Shown here piece by piece: positions 3,001 through 61,400 of a stretch of 64,000 nucleotides of DNA. How positions within the stretch are numbered: the first letter of the stretch is position 1; each line of letters starts with the position of its first letter. The DNA is from a virus. The DNA is taken from positions 1 to 64,000 of IMG/VR virus record IMGVR_UViG_3300045789_000711; one strand, written 5' to 3'. The notes below the pieces were generated by a model that was given only the letters and a program-made list of their open reading frames with translations, was not told the origin of the DNA and did no database searches. Made by a program: the position numbers and the translations under genes.

Positions 3001-6000
3001 CGTCCACGATGTCGGGAATAGCAACGGTTTCAGACACGTCTTTAGCGGTCTTAAGGTTTACATGGCGGTGAAATAAGCTGCGCAAGCCGGATAGGTTTTT
3101 AAAGCCCACTAGCGCGGTTTTCATTTCTACTTCGCCCGATAGCTTCTGCACTGGCATTTCATCGGTTTCACCAAATACCCGCACAAAGTCGTCAACGTCA
3201 ACAATGCCTAACTGGCTCCACTGATCCGGTGTCATGACGTGAGATAGCATGTTAAAGATATCGGTCGGACTGTTTACGGTTGGTGTTGCTGATAGCAGCA
3301 CAACGCCACGGCCCCCGTTTTTCTCTTTAATCAATTGGCCTTTTAACGATAGGTCAACCGACACTTGAGCGCTGGCCTGTGTTGGCAGGTAAGCCAGTTT
3401 TGATGCTTCACGTCCCGCTTTGTAGCTGTTCCGGTAGTTATGGCCCTCGTCGATGATCACATTATCAAAGCCCATATCTTCAAAGTACGGCACGTCTTCG
3501 GCTTTCTTCGTTCCGGTATCGGCATATTTCTCTTTGAACTTGGCATTTTTAAGTGACTCGCGGTGCTTCTTAGCGTCAGCAACGTACTTACCGCCAAGCA
3601 TGCCAGCGTCAACCATTTTAGAAACGAACTCACCCACTGATTCAGGGCGCATAGGTATCGATGCGTACTGCTCTTTGGTCATAACAACCGTAGTGAAGTT
3701 TGAATGCGGGATCATGTTCAGTCGCGTTTTCACTTCTTTGCTTGAAAGCGCCTTAATTTTATCGCGTTGCATTGGTTGGTTAGTGTTGCGGTTTAGCTTC
3801 ACTTCGCCTTTTTCGTCAAGCACTGTTTCTTGCTCAACTTCGCCACCTTTTCCGATCACCGGTTCTACGCCAATAAATAAAATATTGCTCATGTTTTGGC
3901 GACCAAAAAACGCTTTGGACTCGTGATACCAGTTATCAATAACCGACTTAGGAACAACCAGTGCGGTACGACGTGCGCGGCCCAATTCAGTGTTATAAGC
4001 AATTAAACCTAAAGCCGTTGCTGTTTTACCTAGTCCGGTACCAAAACCGCAAATACCGCCGCCTGTTTCGCTTAAACGTCGGATTTCAGAGCATTGATAA
4101 TCAAAGTTAACGATTTCACCGGATGTGTTCTCAAGGCCAAGTGGTGCGCCTGAGTGTTCAATAGGGATAAAGCCATTAAACTTATCGTTATACAGGTTGG
4201 TGATTGGGTCGATGTCGTCGTGTTGACGGATCCAAATACCAAACTCGGCTTCTAGGTCTTTGATCCGGCTTTTGTAGGCCGATGCTGCTGCAGCGTCAGA
4301 GCTGCGCACGGGTAAGCCATTGAGGTAGTTTTCAATCTGGCGCTCAAACTGCTCATTTGTGCTGCTGCGCTTTTTGCCGTCACGTAATTGGTAGCCAGAA
4401 AATAGACCGTCATCGCCGTTGTATTCCTTATTATCAAATTGATTGCCTAATTCGTCCTCTTCAACGCGTGAGTATTCAAGCGATGAATAGCCGTTAGACT
4501 TTAAAAACTCAAGCACATAATTTCGTGGTACCCACTTTGCCGACATAGTGATGTCGATAGCGTCAACGTTCGTTCGCGTTCGTTTGCGTTCGATAGCGTC
4601 TAGCTGGGCTTGGTAGTTTTCCAAGATAGGTTTACTGGTTTCGTTGGCCATGGCAGCAAGTAAGCGCTCGCGGCCTGCAACGATGTTACCGCTAGTTGCA
4701 CGGTCAAGAGGGGCAAGCATGCCGTCAGGGGTGATAGCGATACCCTCAATGGCGGCTAGCTGTTCAAGTGTTTCAAGTGTTCCCGTGTAAACCTGCAAGA
4801 AGTCTTCAAGCGGTACGGGTACCAAGTCACGCACTGAAAACAAGTTAGCGACTGTTTGGGTTGCATCTTGTGGATCAAACGCAATGGTTTCACCTTTAAC
4901 GACTTCACCCTTTAGCAGTGCTGAGAACTCGCCATTTTTATCAAGTGATGCAGAAAAAGCATTCCAGTAATTAGCGTTGCGGCCAGTGAGTACAGTGAGT
5001 GATTTATTGTTGGCTGGGGTGCCATACTTTTGAGACTCGGCCAAGATAAGCGCACGGGCCTCGGCTAAAATCGTTTCGTCCGGCTCATCGCTATACTGCA
5101 GTGCTTGGATGCGCATACCAATGATAGAGCCACGGATCACTTGAGCCTTGTACTTATCATCAACGGTATTCGATAGCTTAATGAAATCACTGAGTAGCCC
5201 ACGGGTTAGGTAAGGGTAGTCGGTGTTGATGGCCATAAGCTGATCGTAAGACAGAGCTAAGGCACCTAGCGGGTTAGAAAGCATGCTATCAAGTGCGCCT
5301 AAGCTCGATGCACCGTAACGTTCAGCATTGATAGTGCCGTCGTCGTTTTCACGCTTAATCAGTTCCCAGTTACCGTTTACTAGTGACATCCAGCGGCCGT
5401 TAATCAGCTTTTCGTCACCCTCTGCATAAGTGATTGGTAGCGGTTCGGCTGCGTTCAGGCTGTCCCATTCGATGCGGGTTTCAAACTTGTGCGATAGCTT
5501 TTCTTTAAGTTGTAAGTTCGTTAGTGCGTTATTGTTGTTAACGACGAGCTTATTTTGAAAGCTTAAGCGTTCAGACTCGCCATGAACAAAGCGCTTGCCC
5601 TCGGCTACATCGAACCACTTACCACTAATGAACGTATCCCAAAGCACGTTAGCCGCTTTCAAATCAGCGTCTTTAAGTTTGGGTAGCTTCTGGGCCAAAT
5701 CGTCCGAGTGTTTACGCAAAAAGATAACGTCAGTCACAACGTCGGTACCGGAATCACTAAACACGCCTGATGGTAGTCGATGAGCGCCTAAGAACTCGGC
5801 TTTACGACTGATGAGGCGGCGCATTTTCTTGTTGTCTTTACCGCTTACAATGCGAGTAGGTACCACTAGGCCAATAAGGCCACCAGCTTTAACCTTATCA
5901 ATGACGCGCACGACAAAGTAATCAGCGATGTTAGTAAACTCTTTTGATGCTGGGTCAGAGTCCAATACAGCGGTTTCACCTCGGGCGGTACCAAATGGCA

Positions 6001-11371: not shown

Positions 11372-12050
11372 TTGTTATCCAATAAGTTAAAAGTTTATGG
11401 TTAAAAACTAAACTCAACTTGACGGAAACAGGCAGGGGTAATACAATTAGCGCGTAAATAGTTAGGGGGTGGTTCCCTTAGCCGCTCTGTCATTCTGCAA
11501 AGATTGGTCAGAAATTTGCGTTTTAATGAGGCCGTTTTATTTAGTTGCTACCCTTGGGTCTGTTTCTACCTAAGTTAAGTTTTTTGGTCTGTTTCTATCT
11601 AAGTTAAGTTTTATGGTCTGTTTCTATCTAAGTTAAGTTTTATGGTCTGTTTCTATCTAAGTTAAGTTTTATGATGAATTACGCTGTACTTTAGGGGGGA
11701 GGTTGTCGCCAATCCCCTAAGCATTCCCCTTATCGGGGTCAAATTGGGACTCTTTTGAGTCCTTTTTTGTTGTCTTTTTTTCCAGTCTCAACCGCTTGGT
11801 ATGCGATCATAAATTGGTCAATAGAACTTAGCGCGCGCTTATGATAGATCCGCAAAGCCCCGCCTGTCATCAACTAAATCAAGTTGCGATCAAAACTGTG
11901 AGAATAACGATCCCCGCAAGCCTTATCACTTCTAGCTATGCCGGAAGTCAATACCTTTTAAAATAATTACCCTAACGTATAGAATAAACAATTTTTTAAT
12001 CAAATAGGTTCGGTGTTAGGATGTAAACGCATCAAAACGCATAGGTGATT
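11372..12050. other. Candidate replication origin region
   Basis: A 679-base gene-free stretch between the divergent Rep-like and MT-A70 genes. It contains four iterons (11557-11672), three TTAGGGG boxes (11462-11468, 11691-11697 and, inverted, 11714-11720), a partial DnaA-box-like TTATCCAA near 11385, an A+T-rich block at about 11955-12005, and a GTTAGGATGT box at 12015-12024 just before the methylase gene. Iterons beside a winged-helix gene and an A+T-rich segment are the usual parts of an iteron plasmid origin. Function is inferred. Confidence 0.55.
11557..11672. repeat. Four tandem 29-bp iterons
   Basis: Direct repeats start at 11557, 11586, 11615 and 11644, exactly 29 bp apart. Each begins GGTCTGTTTCTA and contains CTAAGTTAAGTTTT; copy 1 differs from the others at one internal base and at its last bases. 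The perfect spacing close to three helical turns suggests cooperative binding of a protein along one face of the DNA. Confidence 0.9.
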
Positions 12051-12929
12051 ATGTCCATGGATCTAACAGATTTAGAGCTTACAGCGGAGGCCATTAAAAA
12101 GGCTTCTATGCTATCCACAAACGAGCATAAACGGTTTAAGGTGATCAGCGCCGATATACCTTGGAGCTACAAAGATAAGAAAATGAACCGAGGCGGGGCC
12201 GCTAGGTACTACGACACAATGACAATAGAGCAGATTAAATCTATTAACGTTGCTGATGTGGCCGATGATGATTGCCTGTTAATGCTTTGGGCCACTGCAC
12301 CGCTTTTGCCGGAAGCGTTGGACGTGATTAACGCTTGGGGCTTTAAGTATAAGACTGTTGGCTTTGTCTGGGTGAAACGTTCGGCTAACTACTGGACTAA
12401 CCTAGCCAAGCGCTTAAGGCGCGATTTCTCAACGTATTACAATCTATTCAAAGAGGTTGATGAGGGCAGTCCCTTTTCACCTGAGTCACTAAAAGCGTGG
12501 TTCGGTACCGACTGGATTAAATCAGTTACGACTGAAAAGGCACCCTATAACGTTGGCATGGGTTCGTATACTCGGGCCAATGCTGAATTTGTCTTGTTTG
12601 CGGTCAAAGGCAAGGGCGCTACATTGATTGAAGATCACAGCATTAGCCAGATTATCGATAGCTGCAAGATGGAACACTCAAGAAAGCCGGATGAATATCT
12701 CGAAACGGTTGAAAGCCTCACTTTTTCTTGCAGTAAGTTTGAGATGTTCGCGCGCCGTCGTCGTGAGGGTTGGGAGGTATTAGGCAATCAAGTCGATACT
12801 GACTACTTACTCGATGAACACTACAAACTAGTCAGGTTGTCAGAGCGTGTAAACGTCAATCATAAACCCACTGGCAGACCTTACGTTAGGAAGAACCCGA
12901 TCAAAATCGAAGAACTAAAAACGGCCTAA
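12051..12929 (+). CDS. MT-A70 family adenine-N6 DNA methyltransferase
   Basis: About 292 aa. The start is uncertain among GTG 12045, ATG 12051 and ATG 12057, all behind AGGTG. Near residue 32 is ISADIPWSYKD, the catalytic motif of MT-A70 enzymes (D-P-P-W, here D-I-P-W), followed by GGAARYYDTM and, further on, LLMLWATAPLLPEAL and FVWVKR, typical of the family. Near residue 180, GSYTRANAEFVLFAVKG matches the conserved end of the fold. It would methylate adenine in phage or host DNA, perhaps to evade restriction. GTTAGGATGT boxes lie on both sides of the gene. Confidence 0.8.
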   Translation: MSMDLTDLELTAEAIKKASMLSTNEHKRFKVISADIPWSYKDKKMNRGGAARYYDTMTIEQIKSINVADVADDDCLLMLWATAPLLPEALDVINAWGFKYKTVGFVWVKRSANYWTNLAKRLRRDFSTYYNLFKEVDEGSPFSPESLKAWFGTDWIKSVTTEKAPYNVGMGSYTRANAEFVLFAVKGKGATLIEDHSISQIIDSCKMEHSRKPDEYLETVESLTFSCSKFEMFARRRREGWEVLGNQVDTDYLLDEHYKLVRLSERVNVNHKPTGRPYVRKNPIKIEELKTA

Positions 12930-21214: not shown

Positions 21215-22270
21215 TTAAACCTTTTGAGTATGTAGTAGTTTGCGAACGCCGCGAACGATGGCCATTTCTGGCTGTTCCGGTATGTCGATAGTGTGGAACC
21301 AAGCTTGTGCGTGTTCTTGTAGCCAGTTAGCGCCGCCGCCAACAAACACTATGCGGGTTAACGTGCTTAGGTTTGAGTCTGTTAGCTTCATCATATCGCT
21401 GTAAACAAGGTCAGCAAGGTATTGAGCGGCCTCGTTAACCAAGTCTGACACGTCTATACGCGCCTTTACGGCACTTTCTTTGTTACTGGTAGATCCAATA
21501 TAGCCTAAATCGATAATGATTCGCAGATCTGAGTTTGAGAGCGCCTTGGTTGCGCCTAGGCCCAGTCTGTCAGCATTGCGATTAAGTAGCGTCTTGAAGT
21601 GTTCAAACATCTTGTGTACGCCGTTCTCACTCGTTGCGTAGTCGATAACTTCAAAGCCGCGACCAATAATCGCTAAATCATTTGAGAACTGGCCAAGGTC
21701 AATCACCAGCGTCTTAATGTCGTGTTCGTATTCTTCGTTAAATGAGCCGTTATCATCAATGGCCACGTAGACGTAAGCGGGTATGGCTTCTGGGAATACT
21801 AATATCTTATTAAGTATCGGCGCTGCAGTGGTGCCGTTGTAGCTGGTCACTGGTGAGTTAAGTGAAGCTTTCTTCTTTTCGATAAGGTCGGTATTGATTG
21901 GTGACTGACTATCGCCTTTGTTGTAGTAGTGGCTTGTCGGTACCGTGCAACCAATAATGATTTGTTGGCCATCAAGTCCGGCGTTGGCCAGTGTGTTGTT
22001 TACCAGTACGCGGTTAGCTTCTGATACTTGGTATTCACGGTAGCAAGTATCTTCTGGGTTAGATGATGCGTGTCGAACCGTATAAGCGTTGCCGCTTTCA
22101 CATACCCAAGCTGAATCGCTGATACCTGATAAGTCCATTAGTGCGCCTTTTTCGATGATAGACGGGTTATGGCCCTCGATAAGTGTGCCGTCTGGATCCA
22201 AAAATGAGTAAGCAATGTTTCCGGATCCATCATCAATTGCGACTAAAGGTATAAAATTTTCGTTGTTCAT
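21215..22270 (-). CDS. parM: ParM/StbA-type actin-like partition ATPase
   Basis: A 351-aa actin-fold protein with the ParM signatures in order: IDDGSGN (phosphate 1, about 12-18), CTVPTSHYYNKG, IEKKKASL and VFPEAIPA, all collinear with plasmid R1 ParM, then DLGQFSND (phosphate 2, about 192) and VFVGGGANW (adenosine motif, about 314). ParM polymerises with ATP into filaments that push plasmid copies apart. Its upstream region contains 11-bp repeats that could be the centromere parC. Finding it beside the terminase genes, in a genome that also has a ParA locus, is unusual. Confidence 0.85.
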   Translation of the reverse strand: MNNENFIPLVAIDDGSGNIAYSFLDPDGTLIEGHNPSIIEKGALMDLSGISDSAWVCESGNAYTVRHASSNPEDTCYREYQVSEANRVLVNNTLANAGLDGQQIIIGCTVPTSHYYNKGDSQSPINTDLIEKKKASLNSPVTSYNGTTAAPILNKILVFPEAIPAYVYVAIDDNGSFNEEYEHDIKTLVIDLGQFSNDLAIIGRGFEVIDYATSENGVHKMFEHFKTLLNRNADRLGLGATKALSNSDLRIIIDLGYIGSTSNKESAVKARIDVSDLVNEAAQYLADLVYSDMMKLTDSNLSTLTRIVFVGGGANWLQEHAQAWFHTIDIPEQPEMAIVRGVRKLLHTQKV

Positions 22271-22588
22271 ATATAAATCCCCGATTATTAATAAATGCCA
22301 AAAAGCGCGTATAAGTTACCATAAACACCCTAACAATAAACCATAAATACGCTAGTTTTGTGCGTATTTGTTCTGTTTAGCTGTTATTTGATCAGTCGCC
22401 TGCCTTGTTAATGTCATTTATCTGCCTGTAACCTGCTTACAACTCGCTTAAAACCTGCTTATTAGTGCGGTGGTTAACTGGATCCACAAATCGTGTGATA
22501 ACCCATTTCCTTTATGCGTTGCGCTCGCTTCTAATGTACGATAAGCCCAATTTGTTAGGATGTAGTGGATCGGGTAAGAGCAAACAAG
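22271..22588. promoter_or_regulatory. Divergent control region of ParM and terminase genes
   Basis: 318 bases without a gene. It holds an ACACCCTAAC box near 22326 on the parM side, the 11-bp repeats, a GGATCC at 22480-22485, and a GTTAGGATGT box (22554-22563) immediately followed by GTGGATCGGGTA. The last segment joins the dispersed operator, one GTGGATC element and the GGATCGGGTA leader within 23 bp before the terminase start. Confidence 0.5.
22420..22463. repeat. Four 11-bp direct repeats, candidate parC centromere
   Basis: Units at 22420, 22431, 22442 and 22453 read ATCTGCCTGTA, ACCTGCTTACA, ACTCGCTTAAA and ACCTGCTTATT. The 11-bp period equals that of R1 parC, and the array lies upstream of parM as expected. 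Only four units are visible, against ten in R1. Confidence 0.55.
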
Positions 22589-23917
22589 ATGTCTAGCAGT
22601 TCAAAAGATTCTATTGATATTGACTGGTGTACGCACCGAGAAGACTTTGTGGTTAACCATGCCCCAAGTGGTACCAGTGCAAGAAAGTATCTATCGGAAC
22701 AAGGGCTTAACATCAATACAGGCCGTAAGCAGTTTGCAGCTATCGCCAAGCTTGAGGGTGATGGCTTGTCTTATGATGCCATTCGTAAAGCGCTATTTAG
22801 CAAGGCACCAGTCAAGGTTAAAAGTGGATCCAAGAGTGGATCTAAAAGTGGATCCAAGAGTGGATCTAAAAGTGGATCCAAGAGTGGATCCATAAAAGTG
22901 GATCCACCCGCTAGTAAGAATGCTAGATCCAAAACAACAAAGAAAAAACCCATAAAAAACAAAGATGTTACCGAGGGGAAAACAGAGCGAACACCCGTCA
23001 CGGAAAAGAAAAAAACCAAAACAACGAAACGGTTAACAAGTTCGTTACAACAAGTGTTCATTGACCGTTCGAGTGATATGCAAGCTGTGAATAGTGGCCG
23101 CTTCGCTGCAGGTAACACGGCGGCGGTTAAGACGGGTGCTTATATGAACTTGGTTCACGCACAAAGTGACATCGTTGAAACGGTATTGAATTGCCGTCTA
23201 GGTGATGTATCGGGCCTCGTTAAGCTTTCGGAAATTCGTTACATCCAAATGGAACGCTTGCTTGTTGATAGGTTGGTCACTATTGAGCAACGCGCGCTTG
23301 AGGGTAACTTACCGCGTGACCACAACAACGAAGTCATTAGTAAGGAGGATTTGGTTAGAGAGGCCTATTGGGGGTCGTCTTCTGTCTTAACGGGTTTGCT
23401 TGGCACGTTGACGATGGCCCATACCCAAGCCAGTAAAGCCGAAGTTGATAATGAAATCAAAATGGGCCGCTACTTAAAGGAAAAAGCAGATCGCGAGTTC
23501 CTTATCAGTTTATCCCAAGAGCGTGAAGCCAATGAAGATATGACCGCGCTAGAAATGGCGAGGCGCATTGAGGCTTATGGCTTGTCGCCATCCCCAATAA
23601 TTACAGCCGAAGCGCTGAAAGAAATCGAATTGATGCGTCCTAAAGTCGATACGTCCGGCATTAGTGAAGAAGAGCTTGATGCCAAAGTTGAAAGCTACAT
23701 GCAAAAAGTTAAAACCGATGTTGATGCTATGTCTTCGCGTCGTGGAATATTGGAAGAGCTTATGCTGCAGAGTAAGGCTGAACTTGAGGCTGGCGGCTTA
23801 GACGAAGAGGATTTCCAAAGTACAGCGTATTCCGGTTTGGAATATGACGAGAGTGAAGATGTTGAGTTTAGCGGGATAGATAGCGACGACATCGATAACG
23901 ACGAGTGGAGTGATTAA
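22589..23917 (+). CDS. Putative terminase small subunit (PacA-like)
   Basis: ATG 22589 is preferred; a GTG at 22565 would add eight residues but lies inside a control element. The 442-aa acidic protein has a helix-turn-helix-like region (about 35-70, with TGRKQFAAIAKLEGDGLSYD), then six KSGS repeats (about 80-103) encoded by the GATC array, a Lys-rich linker, and a long helical C-terminal part. Directly followed by the large subunit after 2 nt. Its size is near the 45-kDa PacA of P1, which recognises a pac site inside its own gene. Role inferred from position and architecture. Confidence 0.6.
   Translation: MSSSSKDSIDIDWCTHREDFVVNHAPSGTSARKYLSEQGLNINTGRKQFAAIAKLEGDGLSYDAIRKALFSKAPVKVKSGSKSGSKSGSKSGSKSGSKSGSIKVDPPASKNARSKTTKKKPIKNKDVTEGKTERTPVTEKKKTKTTKRLTSSLQQVFIDRSSDMQAVNSGRFAAGNTAAVKTGAYMNLVHAQSDIVETVLNCRLGDVSGLVKLSEIRYIQMERLLVDRLVTIEQRALEGNLPRDHNNEVISKEDLVREAYWGSSSVLTGLLGTLTMAHTQASKAEVDNEIKMGRYLKEKADREFLISLSQEREANEDMTALEMARRIEAYGLSPSPIITAEALKEIELMRPKVDTSGISEEELDAKVESYMQKVKTDVDAMSSRRGILEELMLQSKAELEAGGLDEEDFQSTAYSGLEYDESEDVEFSGIDSDDIDNDEWSD
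22821..22930. repeat. GTGGATC array, candidate pac site
   Basis: Eight GATC sites in about 100 bp: 22827, 22839, 22851, 22863, 22875 and 22887 are exactly 12 bp apart, then 22901 and 22926. Seven are part of GTGGATC followed by C or T. The copy at 22898-22904 is in a different reading frame from the other six yet keeps AAAAGTGGATCC, which argues that the DNA itself is conserved. P1 pac is likewise a cluster of seven GATC-containing hexamers in pacA that must be Dam-methylated before cutting. Confidence 0.65.
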
Positions 23918-23919
23918 TC

Positions 23920-25410
23920 ATGGCTGCTGTCGTTAAGTCTATTCGTACAGATCCACGCTGGGTCGAGTTGGTTGTCAAGTTTCGCTATAACTGGGTTATG
24001 GCCCCCATTCATCTAATGGGATTCGAGCCTGTACCTCACCAGTTAGAGCTTTTATCTGCAGCACAGAAAACGGGTTGCCGTGTGTCGGTGTCTTCTGGCC
24101 ACGGTACGGGTAAGTCATCACAGATAGCGATTGTCGTATTAATCTTTATGCTCATGTTCCCTGAGTCCCGTGTAATTCTGGTCGCCAACAAATTGGATCA
24201 GGTAAAGATTGCGGTACTGAAAAACATTAAGATTTATTGGCGACAAATGATTAAGTTTCATCCGTGGATAGAAGAGTATTTCGTCTTAACGGATACGACG
24301 TTTTATGAGCGCGCCAGTAAGGGCATTTGGGAGTTATCACCCAAGGCCTACAAGATAGGTAACGAAGAAGCATTAGCGGGTGAACACGCCAAGCACATGC
24401 TTTGGATCATCGATGAAGCGTCCGGTATCTCTGATAAAGCCTTTGGTGTGATTACAGGCTCGCTAACTGAGGCGAATAACCGCTTAGTGTTACTGTCCCA
24501 GCCAACGCGGGATAACGGGTTTTTCTGGCAGACACACAACGATCCGTCGATTATGCGCGATTGGATGTCGTTAATCTTCAATTCCGAAGACTCACCGCTT
24601 GTTACCGATTCCTTTGTCATGGAAAAATTCAGGCAGTACGGCAATGACCGTAACAGTCCTGAATACATGATTAAAGTGCGCGGGTTGTTCCCCAAAGACT
24701 TCAAAGGCTATTTGCTTACCTCTGACGATATGCTTAAGGCAACAAGGGCCAAGCCTCGGTTATCTAAGCACGAGTGGGGTTGGGTGTTTACCTGTGACGT
24801 TGGTAACGGCCGAGATAGCTCTGTTATCAATATTAACCGCGTGTCCGGTCACGGGCTTGATAGGCGTTCCGTTAACGTTGAGGTGATTGAGTATTCAGGC
24901 TCGATTGATCCGGTTAACTTTGGTCGTGAGATAGTCGCACTGGTTAAGACGGGTAATTACCCTAATGTGTCGGTTTGTATCGATGCCGACGGTGTGGGTT
25001 CGTCTACGTGTCAGATAGTGGAAGAAGCGGGGATCACGGTCACTCGCATACGCTGGGGTCAACCTTGTTTCTCTGACGAGGATAAGCTTAGGTTTATCAA
25101 TAAACGCGCCATGGCGGCTGTTTATACGAAAGATGCGATACGTTCGGGCCGTATGAGAATAGACACGAACCGTAAGACGCGCTTACAGGGCGCGCGTATA
25201 CCTTACTTGATAGATGATAAGGGTCGATTTGTTATTGAGAAAAAGAGTGTGATGCGTGAAAAGCTCAATATACCGTCGCCTGATAGATTCGACACTTACT
25301 GCTTTATTCAATTGGCCGATGTGACTCCGGCAAATGCTGAGGTAGATATTCATACTATGGAAGAGCGAGAAGCGCACGGCGGTTGGGCGAAAGAAATCAC
25401 CCAAGCCTAG
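23920..25410 (+). CDS. Terminase large subunit
   Basis: A 496-aa packaging motor and nuclease. Walker A SSGHGTGKSS (about 58-67), Walker B LWIIDEAS (about 163-170), coupling motif VLLSQPT (about 190), then the RNase H-type nuclease with TCDVGNGRDSS (about 290), VCIDADGVGSS (about 352) and SPDRFDTY (about 453) supplying acidic residues. It cuts concatemeric DNA and drives it into the prohead through the portal. The size matches P1 PacB (about 56 kDa). It starts 2 nt after the small subunit. Confidence 0.88.
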   Translation: MAAVVKSIRTDPRWVELVVKFRYNWVMAPIHLMGFEPVPHQLELLSAAQKTGCRVSVSSGHGTGKSSQIAIVVLIFMLMFPESRVILVANKLDQVKIAVLKNIKIYWRQMIKFHPWIEEYFVLTDTTFYERASKGIWELSPKAYKIGNEEALAGEHAKHMLWIIDEASGISDKAFGVITGSLTEANNRLVLLSQPTRDNGFFWQTHNDPSIMRDWMSLIFNSEDSPLVTDSFVMEKFRQYGNDRNSPEYMIKVRGLFPKDFKGYLLTSDDMLKATRAKPRLSKHEWGWVFTCDVGNGRDSSVININRVSGHGLDRRSVNVEVIEYSGSIDPVNFGREIVALVKTGNYPNVSVCIDADGVGSSTCQIVEEAGITVTRIRWGQPCFSDEDKLRFINKRAMAAVYTKDAIRSGRMRIDTNRKTRLQGARIPYLIDDKGRFVIEKKSVMREKLNIPSPDRFDTYCFIQLADVTPANAEVDIHTMEEREAHGGWAKEITQA

Positions 25411-35426: not shown

Positions 35427-36458
35427 TTATGCGCGGCTTCTAACAGCGCGAGTGATAACGGTTGCTGTCGCTTGGATAGAGGCCGGATTGTTGATCATCT
35501 TACCCGTCTCGCTCACACAAAAGTTAACCCACTTGTCACGACGCCAAAATGTGTCATTGCGTAGCTTATCAAACAATTCAGGCTTGATGTCGCGTGTGAT
35601 TGCAAAGTGGGCCAGTTCGGCCAGTGCCATAAGCGTGACATTGTGGCCCAGAACAAGCTCGGTTCTAAAGTCTTTGCCTGAGCCTGTAACGGTATAAGAG
35701 CGCATTAGGTAGCTGATGTTGATAGAAGAGAATAGCGTGTTGGTGTAGTTCTCAAGCACGGCTAACGCTTCGCCTTTGTCCTCAACAAAAGACATCACTT
35801 TAAGGGCGAACGCCTTAAGGGCTTTGATTGAGTAAATCTTGTCTGACTTACCGGACACGGCATTTTTCTCATACTCGATAGCATTACCAATCACTGAGCG
35901 CTTCATGATGTTAACGATTTCTTGGTCGCGTTCACTGCGGTCATTGTACGTCATACAGATAGCGGCCGATGGCTTGGCCTGAGTAAAGTTGATGTCATGG
36001 AACGCTTGTTGGCGCTGCTTAAGCGTGAGGTTATCAAATAGCATGATGCTTACCATTTGAGACGCAAAGTTAGCATCAACGTCGGCGCGCGCTAACAACT
36101 CTTTAATACCAGTTGCACGATGTTGGCCATCAAACAGCTTAACCAAAGCAGCCATAGGAATAGATAGCGTTCCGGTGTTTTCCATACCCGTAATAGGTGA
36201 GGCTGTGAACGTACACTCACTGCTAACGTGTCCAATCACCGGAGGGATGATGTAGAAGCCGTCTTTATTATCTTGGATGTAGTTAGCCACCTTTTTAGCG
36301 CGGATCTTGTTAACGATGCGCTGTGAACGCTCGTTAACGTCTTCGGCGTCGTCCAGTTTGAATAAGGCGGCAAGTGTTGAGAATGGGGCAATCGCTTGAT
36401 AGAAAACTCGACCGTTTTGCATGCCGCGTAAGGCTGGGATATTAAAACAATAGTTCAT
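35427..36458 (-). CDS. DGQHR-domain protein (DndB-like)
   Basis: A 343-aa protein with KLFDGQHRATGI (DGQHR at about 110-114), the hallmark of the DGQHR/DndB family, followed by FHDINFTQAKPS (about 153-164), another conserved block. In bacteria DndB regulates DNA phosphorothioation with DndCDE; in other settings DGQHR proteins accompany DNA modification or defence systems. No dndA, C, D or E gene is seen here, so this phage copy may act on host modification or serve as a regulator. First gene of its operon, divergent from parA. Confidence 0.75.
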   Translation of the reverse strand: MNYCFNIPALRGMQNGRVFYQAIAPFSTLAALFKLDDAEDVNERSQRIVNKIRAKKVANYIQDNKDGFYIIPPVIGHVSSECTFTASPITGMENTGTLSIPMAALVKLFDGQHRATGIKELLARADVDANFASQMVSIMLFDNLTLKQRQQAFHDINFTQAKPSAAICMTYNDRSERDQEIVNIMKRSVIGNAIEYEKNAVSGKSDKIYSIKALKAFALKVMSFVEDKGEALAVLENYTNTLFSSINISYLMRSYTVTGSGKDFRTELVLGHNVTLMALAELAHFAITRDIKPELFDKLRNDTFWRRDKWVNFCVSETGKMINNPASIQATATVITRAVRSRA

Positions 36459-36690: not shown

Positions 36691-36723
36691 GCCTATTCTC
36701 GTATGGAAATAATGAGGTTCAAA

Positions 36724-37356
36724 ATGGCAATAGTCGTTGTAGCAAGTGGTAAGGGAGGTGTCGGTAAAACGGCGCTGGTTACTAACATATTTGAGAAGCT
36801 TGGCGCTTCTGCAATTATCGATACCGACGTTCACGGCGGCTCAACGACAATGGACGGACTGCGGGAAGATAAGATCCCGTTCTTAGTCAGGGCCAAGACT
36901 GTTGCGGAGCTGGTACCGCTTTTAGAAATGGACTCAACGGACAGAATAACGCTAATTGATTGCGGCGGCTTCGACGATGATTTAACCCGTGTCGCGTTAG
37001 CCAATGCCGATATGATCATCGCCCCAACGAACGAGTCACCTATTGAGCGCGCGGCAATCAATAAGCTTAGTGGCATCATTGCAATGATTAGTGAAGAAGT
37101 AGGTCGAGAGGTTCGCGGCCATGTGCTGTATTGCCGATTCAATCAGAACAAGCGCAAGTTCGATAAGCTCGATGCAATGATAGAGTCGCTTGATAACATG
37201 ACAACGCTAGATGTCACCATACCTAGCCACCAGTCTGTTATTGCTGCGTCAGAGTTCGGTGAAAGAGTTAAATCAGGTGTTATGCCTGTAAAGTATGACC
37301 GTCTAGTGTCAATCATTCACAACTATTTAATTGAAACAGGGGCGTATAAGCCATGA
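36724..37356 (+). CDS. parA: ParA partition ATPase (type Ib)
   Basis: A 210-aa protein from ATG 36724, preceded by GAGG; an ATG at 36703 would add seven residues. Deviant Walker A GKGGVGKT (9-16), A-prime IDTDVHGGST (about 33-42), Walker B LIDCGGFDD (about 78-86). It has no N-terminal helix-turn-helix, which places it in the short type Ib group that pairs with a small ribbon-helix-helix protein. ATP-bound ParA coats the nucleoid and moves plasmid copies apart. The next gene overlaps by 4 nt. Confidence 0.88.
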   Translation: MAIVVVASGKGGVGKTALVTNIFEKLGASAIIDTDVHGGSTTMDGLREDKIPFLVRAKTVAELVPLLEMDSTDRITLIDCGGFDDDLTRVALANADMIIAPTNESPIERAAINKLSGIIAMISEEVGREVRGHVLYCRFNQNKRKFDKLDAMIESLDNMTTLDVTIPSHQSVIAASEFGERVKSGVMPVKYDRLVSIIHNYLIETGAYKP

Positions 37357-37854: not shown

Positions 37855-37954
37855 ATTGCCTTAATTTTAGTAACTAAAATCGCTGTAAGCTTATGTTTGT
37901 TAATGGTTAATACGCCTTTACTTGTTGCCTTTGTGTTTGTTTTTATGGCTTATG

Positions 37955-38122
37955 TTTCGGCCCGTTAATCGGTTACGGTTTCGGCCCGTTAATCGGTTAC
38001 TATTTCGGGCCGTTAATCGGTTACTATTCCGGCCCGTTAATCGGTTACTATTCCGGCCCGTTAATCGGTTACTGTTTCGGCCCGTTAATCGGTTACTGTT
38101 TCGGCCCGTTAATCGGTTACGT
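37955..38122. repeat. Seven tandem 24-bp iterons, candidate parS/centromere
   Basis: Seven units begin at 37955, 37979, 38003, 38027, 38051, 38075 and 38099, each about TTTCGGCCCGTTAATCGGTT plus AC and two variable bases. They follow the ParA/RHH operon, and their core is found inverted before parA. This is typical of a centromere for a ribbon-helix-helix ParB; a second replication origin is less likely. Confidence 0.8.
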
Positions 38123-46031: not shown

Positions 46032-46663
46032 TGCCAGAGTTAACGCCAATGAAGCCTAAAGGGGCTGGCCATGATGCGTATACAAACAGAGTGCGCCAAG
46101 ACTGGGCCGCAGTGATTAAAGCTCATCCTGAGCGCTTTGATGCGCTATTACACAAGACCATAACGCATGAGGTAGCCGAAGCAGACGATCCCGCACTGTT
46201 TGGTAACGTCAACGAGCAGGTATCAGACATTGCTTATCAGGATCCCGTGTTGGTGTCGGCTGTTGAATCAAGCGGTGATGATGATGCCTTTATCAGTTCC
46301 TTTGATGGTGATGAGTCCATGGGGTACGGGGAAACGGCCATGATGATTATGCGCCTATCTGAATTTGATGTGCCGGAGGGGTCTATTGTCGAGTTTTTAG
46401 TGTCGCTATCTGATGGTGAGGTGCAACGCCAGTATTGGTATGTGCATCACTCGACCTCGCTTGGAAGTCCCGCCATTGGTTCAATTCACTATTGCATCCC
46501 GTGTGGTGATATCGAGCAGATAACGCTACCGGATATCAGCGAACCCGCACCGATTACCGAACCGATTACCGAACCTATTACCGAACCGGAACCCGCACCG
46601 ATTACCGAACCGGAACCCGAGGCCACCAGCACAGAGCCAAACGGCGCGCTATTTTCAGTTTAG
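46031..46663 (+). CDS. Unknown protein with Pro/Glu/Thr repeats
   Basis: A 210-aa acidic protein. The end (about 170-202) consists of EPIT/TEPE repeats encoded by near-repeated DNA at 46548-46620, likely a flexible linker or surface stalk. The first 160 residues are mixed alpha/beta. Its start overlaps the gene before it. Confidence 0.5.
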   Translation: MPELTPMKPKGAGHDAYTNRVRQDWAAVIKAHPERFDALLHKTITHEVAEADDPALFGNVNEQVSDIAYQDPVLVSAVESSGDDDAFISSFDGDESMGYGETAMMIMRLSEFDVPEGSIVEFLVSLSDGEVQRQYWYVHHSTSLGSPAIGSIHYCIPCGDIEQITLPDISEPAPITEPITEPITEPEPAPITEPEPEATSTEPNGALFSV

Positions 46664-52471: not shown

Positions 52472-52969
52472 ATGACTGATAAAAAAATCAAAATCAAAGT
52501 AGTTAATAGCTCGGGTTCAGAAGCCTTTAAAGCTGCTGGTATCGAGATCCCTCGAAGCTTTAACGATGTGTTAGAGCTGCCTTTTTACAAAGCTAACGAG
52601 CTGGTGGCCGCGTTATCAGGTATTGCTGCAGTAGAGACTTCGTTCGTTACTGATAGCTTGCAAAACGATGTGCAACAAAGCGTTGTAGATGTCGCTTTAC
52701 AAGATTTGGAAGTCGAAGTAGCAACGTTAAACCTTGCTATTGATGCAGAGCGTCAAATCAATGTTGAGCTAACAGCCAAGCTGGCAGAGCAGCAATTGTT
52801 AACCGACGGTCTAAAGGCCCAGATCGCAACACTAGAAGCGGTCAAGCCAGTAGAAGAAGAAACAACTAAGACTGCAGAAGTAGAAGCGGTTAAACCTGCA
52901 GAAGTAGAAGCGGTTAAACCTGCAGAAGTTACAGCGGCTAAAGCTTCAACTAAAAAGGACGTTAAATAA
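52472..52969 (+). CDS. Unknown protein with Ala/Val/Glu repeats
   Basis: A 165-aa protein: globular first 60 residues, coiled coil about 75-125, then repeats AEVEAVKP encoded by two 24-bp DNA repeats (about 52874-52922), and a basic end. It has GGAGGT before the ATG and shares its last base with the sheath ATG. Possibly a head or neck protein. Confidence 0.5.
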   Translation: MTDKKIKIKVVNSSGSEAFKAAGIEIPRSFNDVLELPFYKANELVAALSGIAAVETSFVTDSLQNDVQQSVVDVALQDLEVEVATLNLAIDAERQINVELTAKLAEQQLLTDGLKAQIATLEAVKPVEEETTKTAEVEAVKPAEVEAVKPAEVTAAKASTKKDVK

Positions 52970-58480: not shown

Positions 58481-61400
58481 GTGGACAAGACGATAGTTGA
58501 TCAGGTTGAGGTAAAAGAGGCAAGTATTGATGCTATCTCTTTGGACTCACTTACCGACCAAGAGACACTTGAGCTAGCTGATGTTGTGACCGCGATTAGA
58601 CGCGCGTCAGACAATGAGATCTCAACAATCAACCAAGGCTTTGACCAATTAAAGTCAGCCTTGGTTAATTCGTTCAAGAATATAGGCAAGCAAAAACCCG
58701 CCAATAACACGGCAAAAACCAGCGTAAAAGAAGCAACAAACACGGCAATACATAGCGAAGCCATCAACAACACAGATAGTCACGCCGCCACAACTGGCAC
58801 TAACCCGCGTAAAAATAGCGGCTTTACGGATAAAGTAAGCGGTAAAGATGCGGATACATCGCAATCTATCGCGCTTGCTGGTGGTCGGCCTATTCAGGGG
58901 GTTAATCCTCAGCACAACACTATTGCGGCCCCAGCGGCACGTAAAAGACGCCAATTAGACCTTGTTGAAGTCGCGCCGGAGTTGGCCAGTGTTAGCCCTC
59001 AAAACGCTAATCAAGACGTACAAAGCATTTCGCAGATAACCAATGTTGCGGGTGATGAAAGCAATGCGTCAAATGTCACGAACAAAACGAGTTCAGGTAA
59101 TCGCAACAAGATAATCAATAGCAGGGCCGAGTCGCGTCTATCTAAACGTTCAGCCATTATTGATAGCAGTGTGACAGAGCAATACAAAGTTGATGCTAAG
59201 GGCCGTTTACGTAATGAGCGTGGGGCTTATGCGTCAAAGGTAGAGCAGAAGCAATACAAAAAAGCTACCAAGGCAAAAGCTGATGAAGCCACCGATAGCG
59301 GCGATCAACCTCAAGAGTCAGTCAAGCAAACCTCACTACTAAAACAATTACTCTTTTCTAGTGCAAAGATAGCTACCCTTGGCGCTGGGTATGGCGTGGG
59401 CCGTAATGGGCTTGGGGATAAAGACGGCACTATTAAGAATACGGCAGGCATGGCCGTTGGCGGGTCTTACTTCTTAGCAGCGCAAGAAGTCGCAACCATG
59501 ATGAATGACATTAAGGATTCGTTTAAGGATTCTGGCATTGAGTCATTTGGTGATGCAGTTAATAAGGTAAAGGAAAAGGCCAAGGCAGCTAAGGACAGTT
59601 TAACGGGCTTTGGTGGTAAAACGGTCAAGATGGCCAAGGCCGTGCAGATGCGTGTCACTGGTAAAGATGACGTACCGCCAGTGCATAAGCCAGTAAAGCG
59701 CAATCCTATATCAATGTTAATGGCCAAGCTGGGTCTATCTAAAACGTCAAACGATAACGATACGGTACGTGAAAGTAATAACGTAGTACGTGAAAACGAT
59801 AACGTTAGCAGTGAAAAAACTAACGTTAAAAGTGCATCAAATGACGTAATCGTTACCAATAACGCCAATATTGGTGCATCAAACGCCCAAAACAGTGAAT
59901 TAAGCGGGGATAAGGGCGTACAGGCTCAGTTGTTCAATGGCAGTGATAGCCAGTCTCAAGGTGAGCAGATAAGCGCTATTGATGAGAGTTCGCAAAAGGC
60001 CGTAGTCAGTAACAAAGAAAAACCAGTTAATGCCGCCGCGATCAGTGGGCCTAATGCGTCAGTGGATGGCAAGGTAGCGCCTAAGTGGATCAAGGCTAAC
60101 ACTAACCCGTTGTTCCGCTTCTTTGCTCGCCTACAGCCTAAAGCCACTAAAACCGACGAGGCCATGTTAACGGCCTATAAGTCAGAGGCTAAAGCGGAAG
60201 AGCAGCGCCACCAAGAATCACTTATTGCCTTGGGTGACATTAAAGATGGCATTAAAGGCATTGAGGGCGGTGAGGGTGGTAGCGGCTTGCTTGGTGATGC
60301 GCTTGATTTCATGGGTGACAGGAAGAAGCGCAAAAAAGGCCGTAACGCTAAAGGTTCTCAACGTTCAGGTCGCTTAAGTGGCTCTAATGGATCATCAAGA
60401 CGTACAGGCAGCTTTGAGTTGCCGGAAAAGTCCGAGCGAGTTAATAACCGGACGCGTCGCGGATCTGCTTATGGCTCTGCAGGCCGTTCGGCTGCTTCGG
60501 TTGGTACCACTGGCCGTGCTATTGGTGGTTCGGTTGCTGGTGGCGCAGTTAAAGCGGGTGGTTCAATGGCTGGTGGCGCGCTTAAAGCGGGTGGCGCTGT
60601 ACTGTCTAAGCTTGCATTGCCATTAACCATTGCTATGGCTGCTTATGATGGTTTCCAAGGCTATAACGATACCGAGGGCCAAAAGGATGCGTTCAAGCTT
60701 AAAGAGGGCCAAGAGGCTAGCGTGGGTCAAAAGGCGTCTTCTGCTGCAGGCTCGGTGTTATCGCTTGGCGGCTTAACTGATTTCATTGGCATATCGAGCG
60801 CGGATATTAGCAAGGCTGTTTATAAATCATTTGGTGGCAGCATTGAGGGTGAAGAAAGCCCTATGCTAAATCTGATGACGCCTATAACGCTACTAACAAG
60901 TGCTATCTCATCGTTTTCAGCTATCACCGATACCGACAAAATCAAAAGCACATTTGGTGTAGATAAAGATACGGATGTCAGTACAGGTCAACGCGCGGCC
61001 AGTCTTGCGGGTTCCGCTTTATCCATGGGTGGTTTATCCAATTTGTTTTTTGATACAAATTCAGAGGACATATCTAAATCAATTTATTCTTTCTTTGGCG
61101 GCAAGGCTGCAGACAGCGCCAGCAATGAAGCCAAAGCAAAAGAGCAGACAGCAAAGACGGTTACGGATACGGTTACATTACCAGTCACGGACACGGTTAC
61201 AAATACAGTTACGCCACCAGCCAGTAAATCGGCTAGTGATTCGAGTGATAAGCCCGTCAGTGTCATAGTGAAAGATCCGACTACGCAACCAGCCACGAAC
61301 ACGGTTACTAAACCAGTTACGAATACAGTTACAAATACAGTTACGGACAAGTTAGTTAATAACGCAGCCACAACGCAGCCTGCAGCGATAACACAAGCTT

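Follow-up and report, generated by a model that had tools for sequence, protein, structure and literature searches.

A GATC repeat array within a divergent pacA gene as a likely pac site of a P1-related phage-plasmid

The window analysed here (64,000 nucleotides, positions 1 to 64,000 of the IMG/VR virus record IMGVR_UViG_3300045789_000711) contains two adjoining terminase genes on the plus strand: a pacA-like gene for the small subunit (22589..23917, 442 aa) and a pacB-like gene for the large subunit (23920..25410). The small subunit was assigned from a match of its product (442-450 aa) to the terminase family phrog_1711 (E=1.3e-10), from an alignment and from an AlphaFold2 model. P1 PacA and D6 PacA fall in the same family (E=2e-201 and 3e-183, respectively). 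Identity between the window and P1 PacA proteins is only about 16%, and the N-terminal alignment places the window segment WCTHREDF...GTSARKYLSEQGLNINTGRKQF against a P1 segment beginning WDDHKKNF. The probable start codon, ATG at 22589, was taken from the equivalent ATG at 3670 of a related contig, L001. The large subunit was assigned by its identity to D6 PacB (50.6%) and P1 PacB (44.1%), in both cases over at least 95% of the length. The arrangement is P1-type: a PacA-like small subunit with an N-terminal helix-turn-helix (HTH) is encoded directly upstream of PacB, and a cluster of GATC sites lies within pacA, past the HTH-coding part. Judged by sequence homology, the locus is the P1 pacase operon, and the gene hosting the array is a divergent homologue of P1/D6 PacA. 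Because direct searches with window PacA gave nothing or weak matches (tblastn returned nothing among phages and two weak matches among plasmids, and scanning viral contigs directly gave no match), its relatives were reached through PacB.

Adjoining pacA on the minus strand is a ParM/StbA-like plasmid segregation gene (21215..22270; PF06406, E=1.7e-17). Besides ParM- and ParA-like genes, the whole record (80,932 bp) encodes a replication helicase and members of tail sheath and baseplate families; given this combination of partition, tail and replication genes, the source is, on its gene content, a P1-related phage-plasmid. Downstream of the ParA-like gene (36703-37356), seven 24-bp direct repeats (TGTTTCGGCCCGTTAATCGGTTAC) at 37953-38120 are likely a partition or replication site. 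A DndB-like DGQHR-domain protein (PF14072) is encoded at 35427-36458, with no further dnd genes among the proteins scanned.

Eight GATC sites are clustered within pacA (22827, 22839, 22851, 22863, 22875, 22887, 22901 and 22926). The first six (22827-22887) are spaced by exactly 12 bp, and the last two follow after 14 bp and 25 bp. Seven of the eight form part of GTGGATC (starting at 22824, 22836, 22848, 22860, 22872, 22884 and 22898). The tandem array proper (22821..22905, plus strand) consists of six 12-bp units (AAAAGTGGATCC / AAGAGTGGATCT) and a frame-shifted seventh copy. Tandem Repeats Finder reports a 12-bp unit, with a 24-bp unit (AAAAGTGGATCC AAGAGTGGATCT) giving the better fit over 22819-22906. 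The seventh copy is a perfect palindrome (GTGGATCCAC, 22898..22907) and encodes Val-Asp-Pro, its codons being AAA GTG GAT CCA (KVDP) as opposed to AAA AGT GGA TCC (KSGS) in the remaining copies. The eighth GATC (22926..22929; CTAGATCC) has no GTG prefix and lies within GATCCAAAACAA, common to the window and L001 (4070-4081). Upstream of the gene are a forward GTGGATC (22565..22571), which is probably non-coding since the likely true start is ATG 22589, as in L001, and a reversed, non-coding copy (22481..22487, minus strand). The original prediction had correctly described the six regular sites with two more behind them, the seven GTGGATC, the reframed seventh copy and the word at 22565-22571; the reversed copy and the palindromic nature of copy seven are additional to it.

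Across the 64-kb window, GTGGATC was counted 18 times where 4.5 would be expected (highest among 100 shuffles, 11), and 10 of these occurrences fall between 22481 and 22907. GATC itself shows no striking over-representation across the window (193 vs 173). The six forward copies represent a 24-bp tandem duplication and are not independent of each other, so the frame shift of copy seven is, by itself, weak evidence of selection on the DNA. With five array copies removed, five GTGGATC remain in 537 bp against 0.03 expected (0/2000 shuffles). Other 12/24-bp arrays, apparently coding, are present at 46545-46620, 52833-52929 and 61152-61354, and the genome seems prone to forming them.

The only close relative found was L001 (IMG/VR contig 3300037294_000424, 63.7 kb), with PacB 78-79% and PacA 63% identical to those of the window. 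As in the window, the word AGTGGATC occurs both in pacA and upstream: six copies lie within 420 bp (3571-3990), and the rest of the contig has only two more. The layout differs, with only two copies in tandem, one separate forward copy and two reversed ones, and the site positions are not those of the window. All three forward copies are in SGS codons, the two reversed copies encode A-D-P and R-S-T in two frames, and the sixth copy is non-coding, upstream of the gene. Leaving out one tandem copy, five AGTGGATC remain against 0.01 expected (0/2000 shuffles).

The AlphaFold2 model of window PacA, built from a 22-sequence alignment, comprises a confident helical N-terminal domain (residues 8-77, HTH), a very-low-confidence, disordered linker (78-189) and a helical C-terminal domain; a fold search of the model against the PDB gave no significant match. 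The array codons start at about residue 78, i.e. at the beginning of the linker after the HTH, which according to the model puts the DNA signal in the part of pacA least constrained by the protein. We compared the same region across 47 dereplicated loci, comprising 36 PacA genes with an N-terminal HTH and 11 without. At least four GATC in 120 bp were present in 28/36 HTH-bearing PacA genes, as against 1/11 of those lacking the HTH and 1/36 of the TerL genes accompanying the former. Adjacent GATC exactly 12 bp apart numbered 54 vs 17.8 expected (synonymous-codon permutation, maximum 29 of 300) and 0 in TerL; as the loci share ancestry, p-values should be read as nominal, and part of the 12-bp excess stems from tandem duplication. 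Per gene, the synonymous test is weak in many relatives (p=0.10 for P1 itself). The arrays encode different peptides, KSGS in the window, SGDH in Pantoea, SDQ in Leclercia and SDP in A. hydrophila, and each of the three reading frames is represented. Among P1-like elements of Shewanella, Vibrio and Tolumonas (L116-L121), PacA is short, without the HTH, and the genes mostly have no GATC array; the published description of the likewise P1-like Vibrio element pVv01 states that its PacA was not identified (PMC4132613). The pacA gene of A. salmonicida plasmid NZ_CP110646 (L012, 2541-3998) appears to be annotated too short, as the open frame with the HTH and the GATC array reaches some 640 bp further upstream than the annotation.

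Methylation control of a packaging signal has its textbook example in P1 pac. We consider it very likely, from these sequence comparisons, that the array and its upstream copies constitute the pac site of this P1-related phage-plasmid, bound by PacA and probably controlled by methylation as in P1. The site is placed here because the operon is homologous, not analogous, to that of P1. The array occupies the homologous place in the gene, the word is conserved at the level of the DNA, and 12-bp GATC arrays extend across the clade; PacA binding, cutting and methylation control of the predicted pac are what we infer. In concatemers fresh from replication, the repeated AGTGGATC words would be the binding target of the N-terminal HTH of the PacA-like subunit, and PacA-PacB would then cut near the words, with headfuls packaged from there. 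The words lie in the DNA coding for the disordered PacA linker, which tolerates peptide change, and the GATC adenine would probably be methylated by host Dam or the phage MT-A70 enzyme, controlling cutting as in P1. A GATC-based pac site within the small-subunit gene, as originally proposed, is thus well supported by L001 and by the conservation of a GATC array among PacA genes. The suggestion that it was built independently of P1 is not supported, both PacA and PacB being homologous to those of P1 and D6; what differs is only the repeat word.

Sensing of methylation by the predicted pac is plausible, and the window encodes a candidate source of GATC methylation in an MT-A70 family adenine methyltransferase (12045..12929, plus strand; PF05063, E=8.1e-22; DNA methyltransferase family phrog_359, E=1.8e-65). 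None of the methylase families PF02086, PF05869 or PF01555 occurs in the phage's own record. In both the window enzyme (12045-12929) and that of the L001 phage (L259, 235-1101), DIPW replaces the usual DPPW active-site motif. Four near-perfect 29-bp repeats lie upstream of the window gene (11557-11673). An MT-A70 gene is present in 8/8 members of the PacB clade containing the window (clade support 83/88, moderate), one of which, L081, has a D12 enzyme in addition. Of the ten further records sampled outside the clade, six have a D12-type methylase that is clear and two a PF05869 Dam; the remaining two, Xanthomonas phage Rb1 (no array) and L070 (array), have none of the three methylase families. 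Annotation as a GATC methylase is frequent among phage MT-A70 enzymes, and overproduced M.EcoGV does methylate GATC; however, an enzyme highly similar to M.EcoGV modifies 16S rRNA, and DNA need not be the substrate of a phage MT-A70 enzyme (PMC10810198). In view of this and of the DIPW motif, we treat marking of pac by the window MT-A70 as a hypothesis.

It is possible, if rather unlikely, that the pac site is recognised by sequence only, without methylation control. The extended word would be specific enough for this, methylation is unproven, and L070 keeps its GATC array in a record where none of the three methylase families was found. Against this, GATC stays constant while the flanks vary, 16/17 of the HTH-type records sampled encode an adenine methylase themselves, and P1 sets the precedent.

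A quite improbable explanation is that the array is a coding minisatellite, a Lys/Ser-Gly-Ser linker grown by tandem duplication in which GATC is a by-product of AGT-GGA-TCN codons. The 24-bp unit is indeed duplicated, the genome has further 12/24-bp arrays, and at least 119 stretches of viral contigs contain AGTGGATC-N4-AGTGGATC (three copies in 8), nearly all without PacA. Many of these matches evidently code for Ser-Gly-rich tracts in unrelated genes, and no PacA relative beyond L001 is among the matches listed. Forward copies alone are weak evidence, since such tandem arrays also occur in unrelated viral loci. A linker minisatellite should show the word only in the SGS frame and only in tandem, whereas the window and L001 both have other-frame, reversed and non-coding copies: copy seven and the upstream copies of the window are not SGS codons, and 12-bp GATC arrays persist in related PacA genes although other peptides (SGDH, SDQ, SDP) are encoded and other frames used. 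Retention of the KSGS tract with other codons, which would have spoken against a DNA signal, was looked for in L001, where AGT-GGA-TCN is kept. The original argument for selection on the DNA stands on the reversed and non-coding copies in L001 and on the PacA-wide arrays, the frame shift of copy seven being weak evidence when taken alone. Less probable still is that the array serves to regulate pacA expression, through PacA autorepression or SeqA/Dam-type control, and is not the cutting site; this would fit the two words upstream of the likely start codon, but most words lie within the gene, some 230-320 bp in, at the position that corresponds to P1 pac.

Returning to the predicted pac site, the words themselves differ between lineages within the window's PacB clade and are largely restricted to the pac region: AGTGGATC in the window and L001, AAGCGATC in L013 and L027, ATCTGATC in L012 and CTGATCAG in L081. 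Of the clustered sites outside this clade, 75% have T immediately before GATC, fitting the P1 hexamer TGATC(A/G). This suggests, at the sequence level, that packaging marker words change from lineage to lineage. More tentatively, MT-A70 may have replaced the Dam-type methylase in this P1-like branch and mark GATC in pac, with the PacA HTH and the pac word diverging together, such that lineage words (AGTGGATC, AAGCGATC, ATCTGATC) sit on a constant GATC, roughly 12-bp scaffold; this could stop co-resident phage-plasmids packaging each other's DNA. Among the papers searched, none was found that compares pac words between P1-like phage-plasmids. The series, with constant GATC and 12-bp spacing, changing flanks and exchange of methylase family, makes co-evolution of terminase and start signal testable, and pac sites become predictable in P1-like phage-plasmids, themselves vehicles of gene transfer among bacteria.

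In P1, pac spans 161 bp within pacA and contains seven TGATCA/G hexamers, synonymous changes to which cut the phage titre about nine-fold; it has been proposed that hemimethylated pac is bound and that further methylation promotes cutting (PMC10028697). The window shares with P1 the homologous PacA-PacB operon, the GATC array in pacA after the HTH-coding part and a 12-bp spacing between several sites, and phages of the P1 group commonly encode an adenine methylase. In contrast to P1, the window has an array of six copies regularly spaced at 12 bp, additional copies ahead of the gene and an MT-A70 methylase in place of a Dam-type enzyme. Its word, AGTGGATC(C/T/A), differs from TGATC(A/G), as had been anticipated, and we therefore regard the site as a variant of P1-type pac rather than a strict member. 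A layout of two clusters with an IHF site and the cut site between them is not evident in the window: an IHF consensus scan gave no match in the window region and one perfect match in L001 (3778), but is uninformative as it finds none in P1 either. D6 and the D6-like phage-plasmid (AY753669) resemble the window in PacB (51%), in the same HTH in PacA and in a GATC cluster within pacA; the D6 cluster, however, is loose (spacings 52, 28, 38 and 13) with mixed flanks. The Aeromonas/Leclercia phage-plasmids (NZ_CP110646, NZ_CP121796, NZ_CP102376) form the nearest clade in the PacB tree and share with the window an MT-A70 gene and pacA GATC arrays, at 12-18-bp spacings, but carry words of their own, ATCTGATC, AAGCGATC and GTGATCA.
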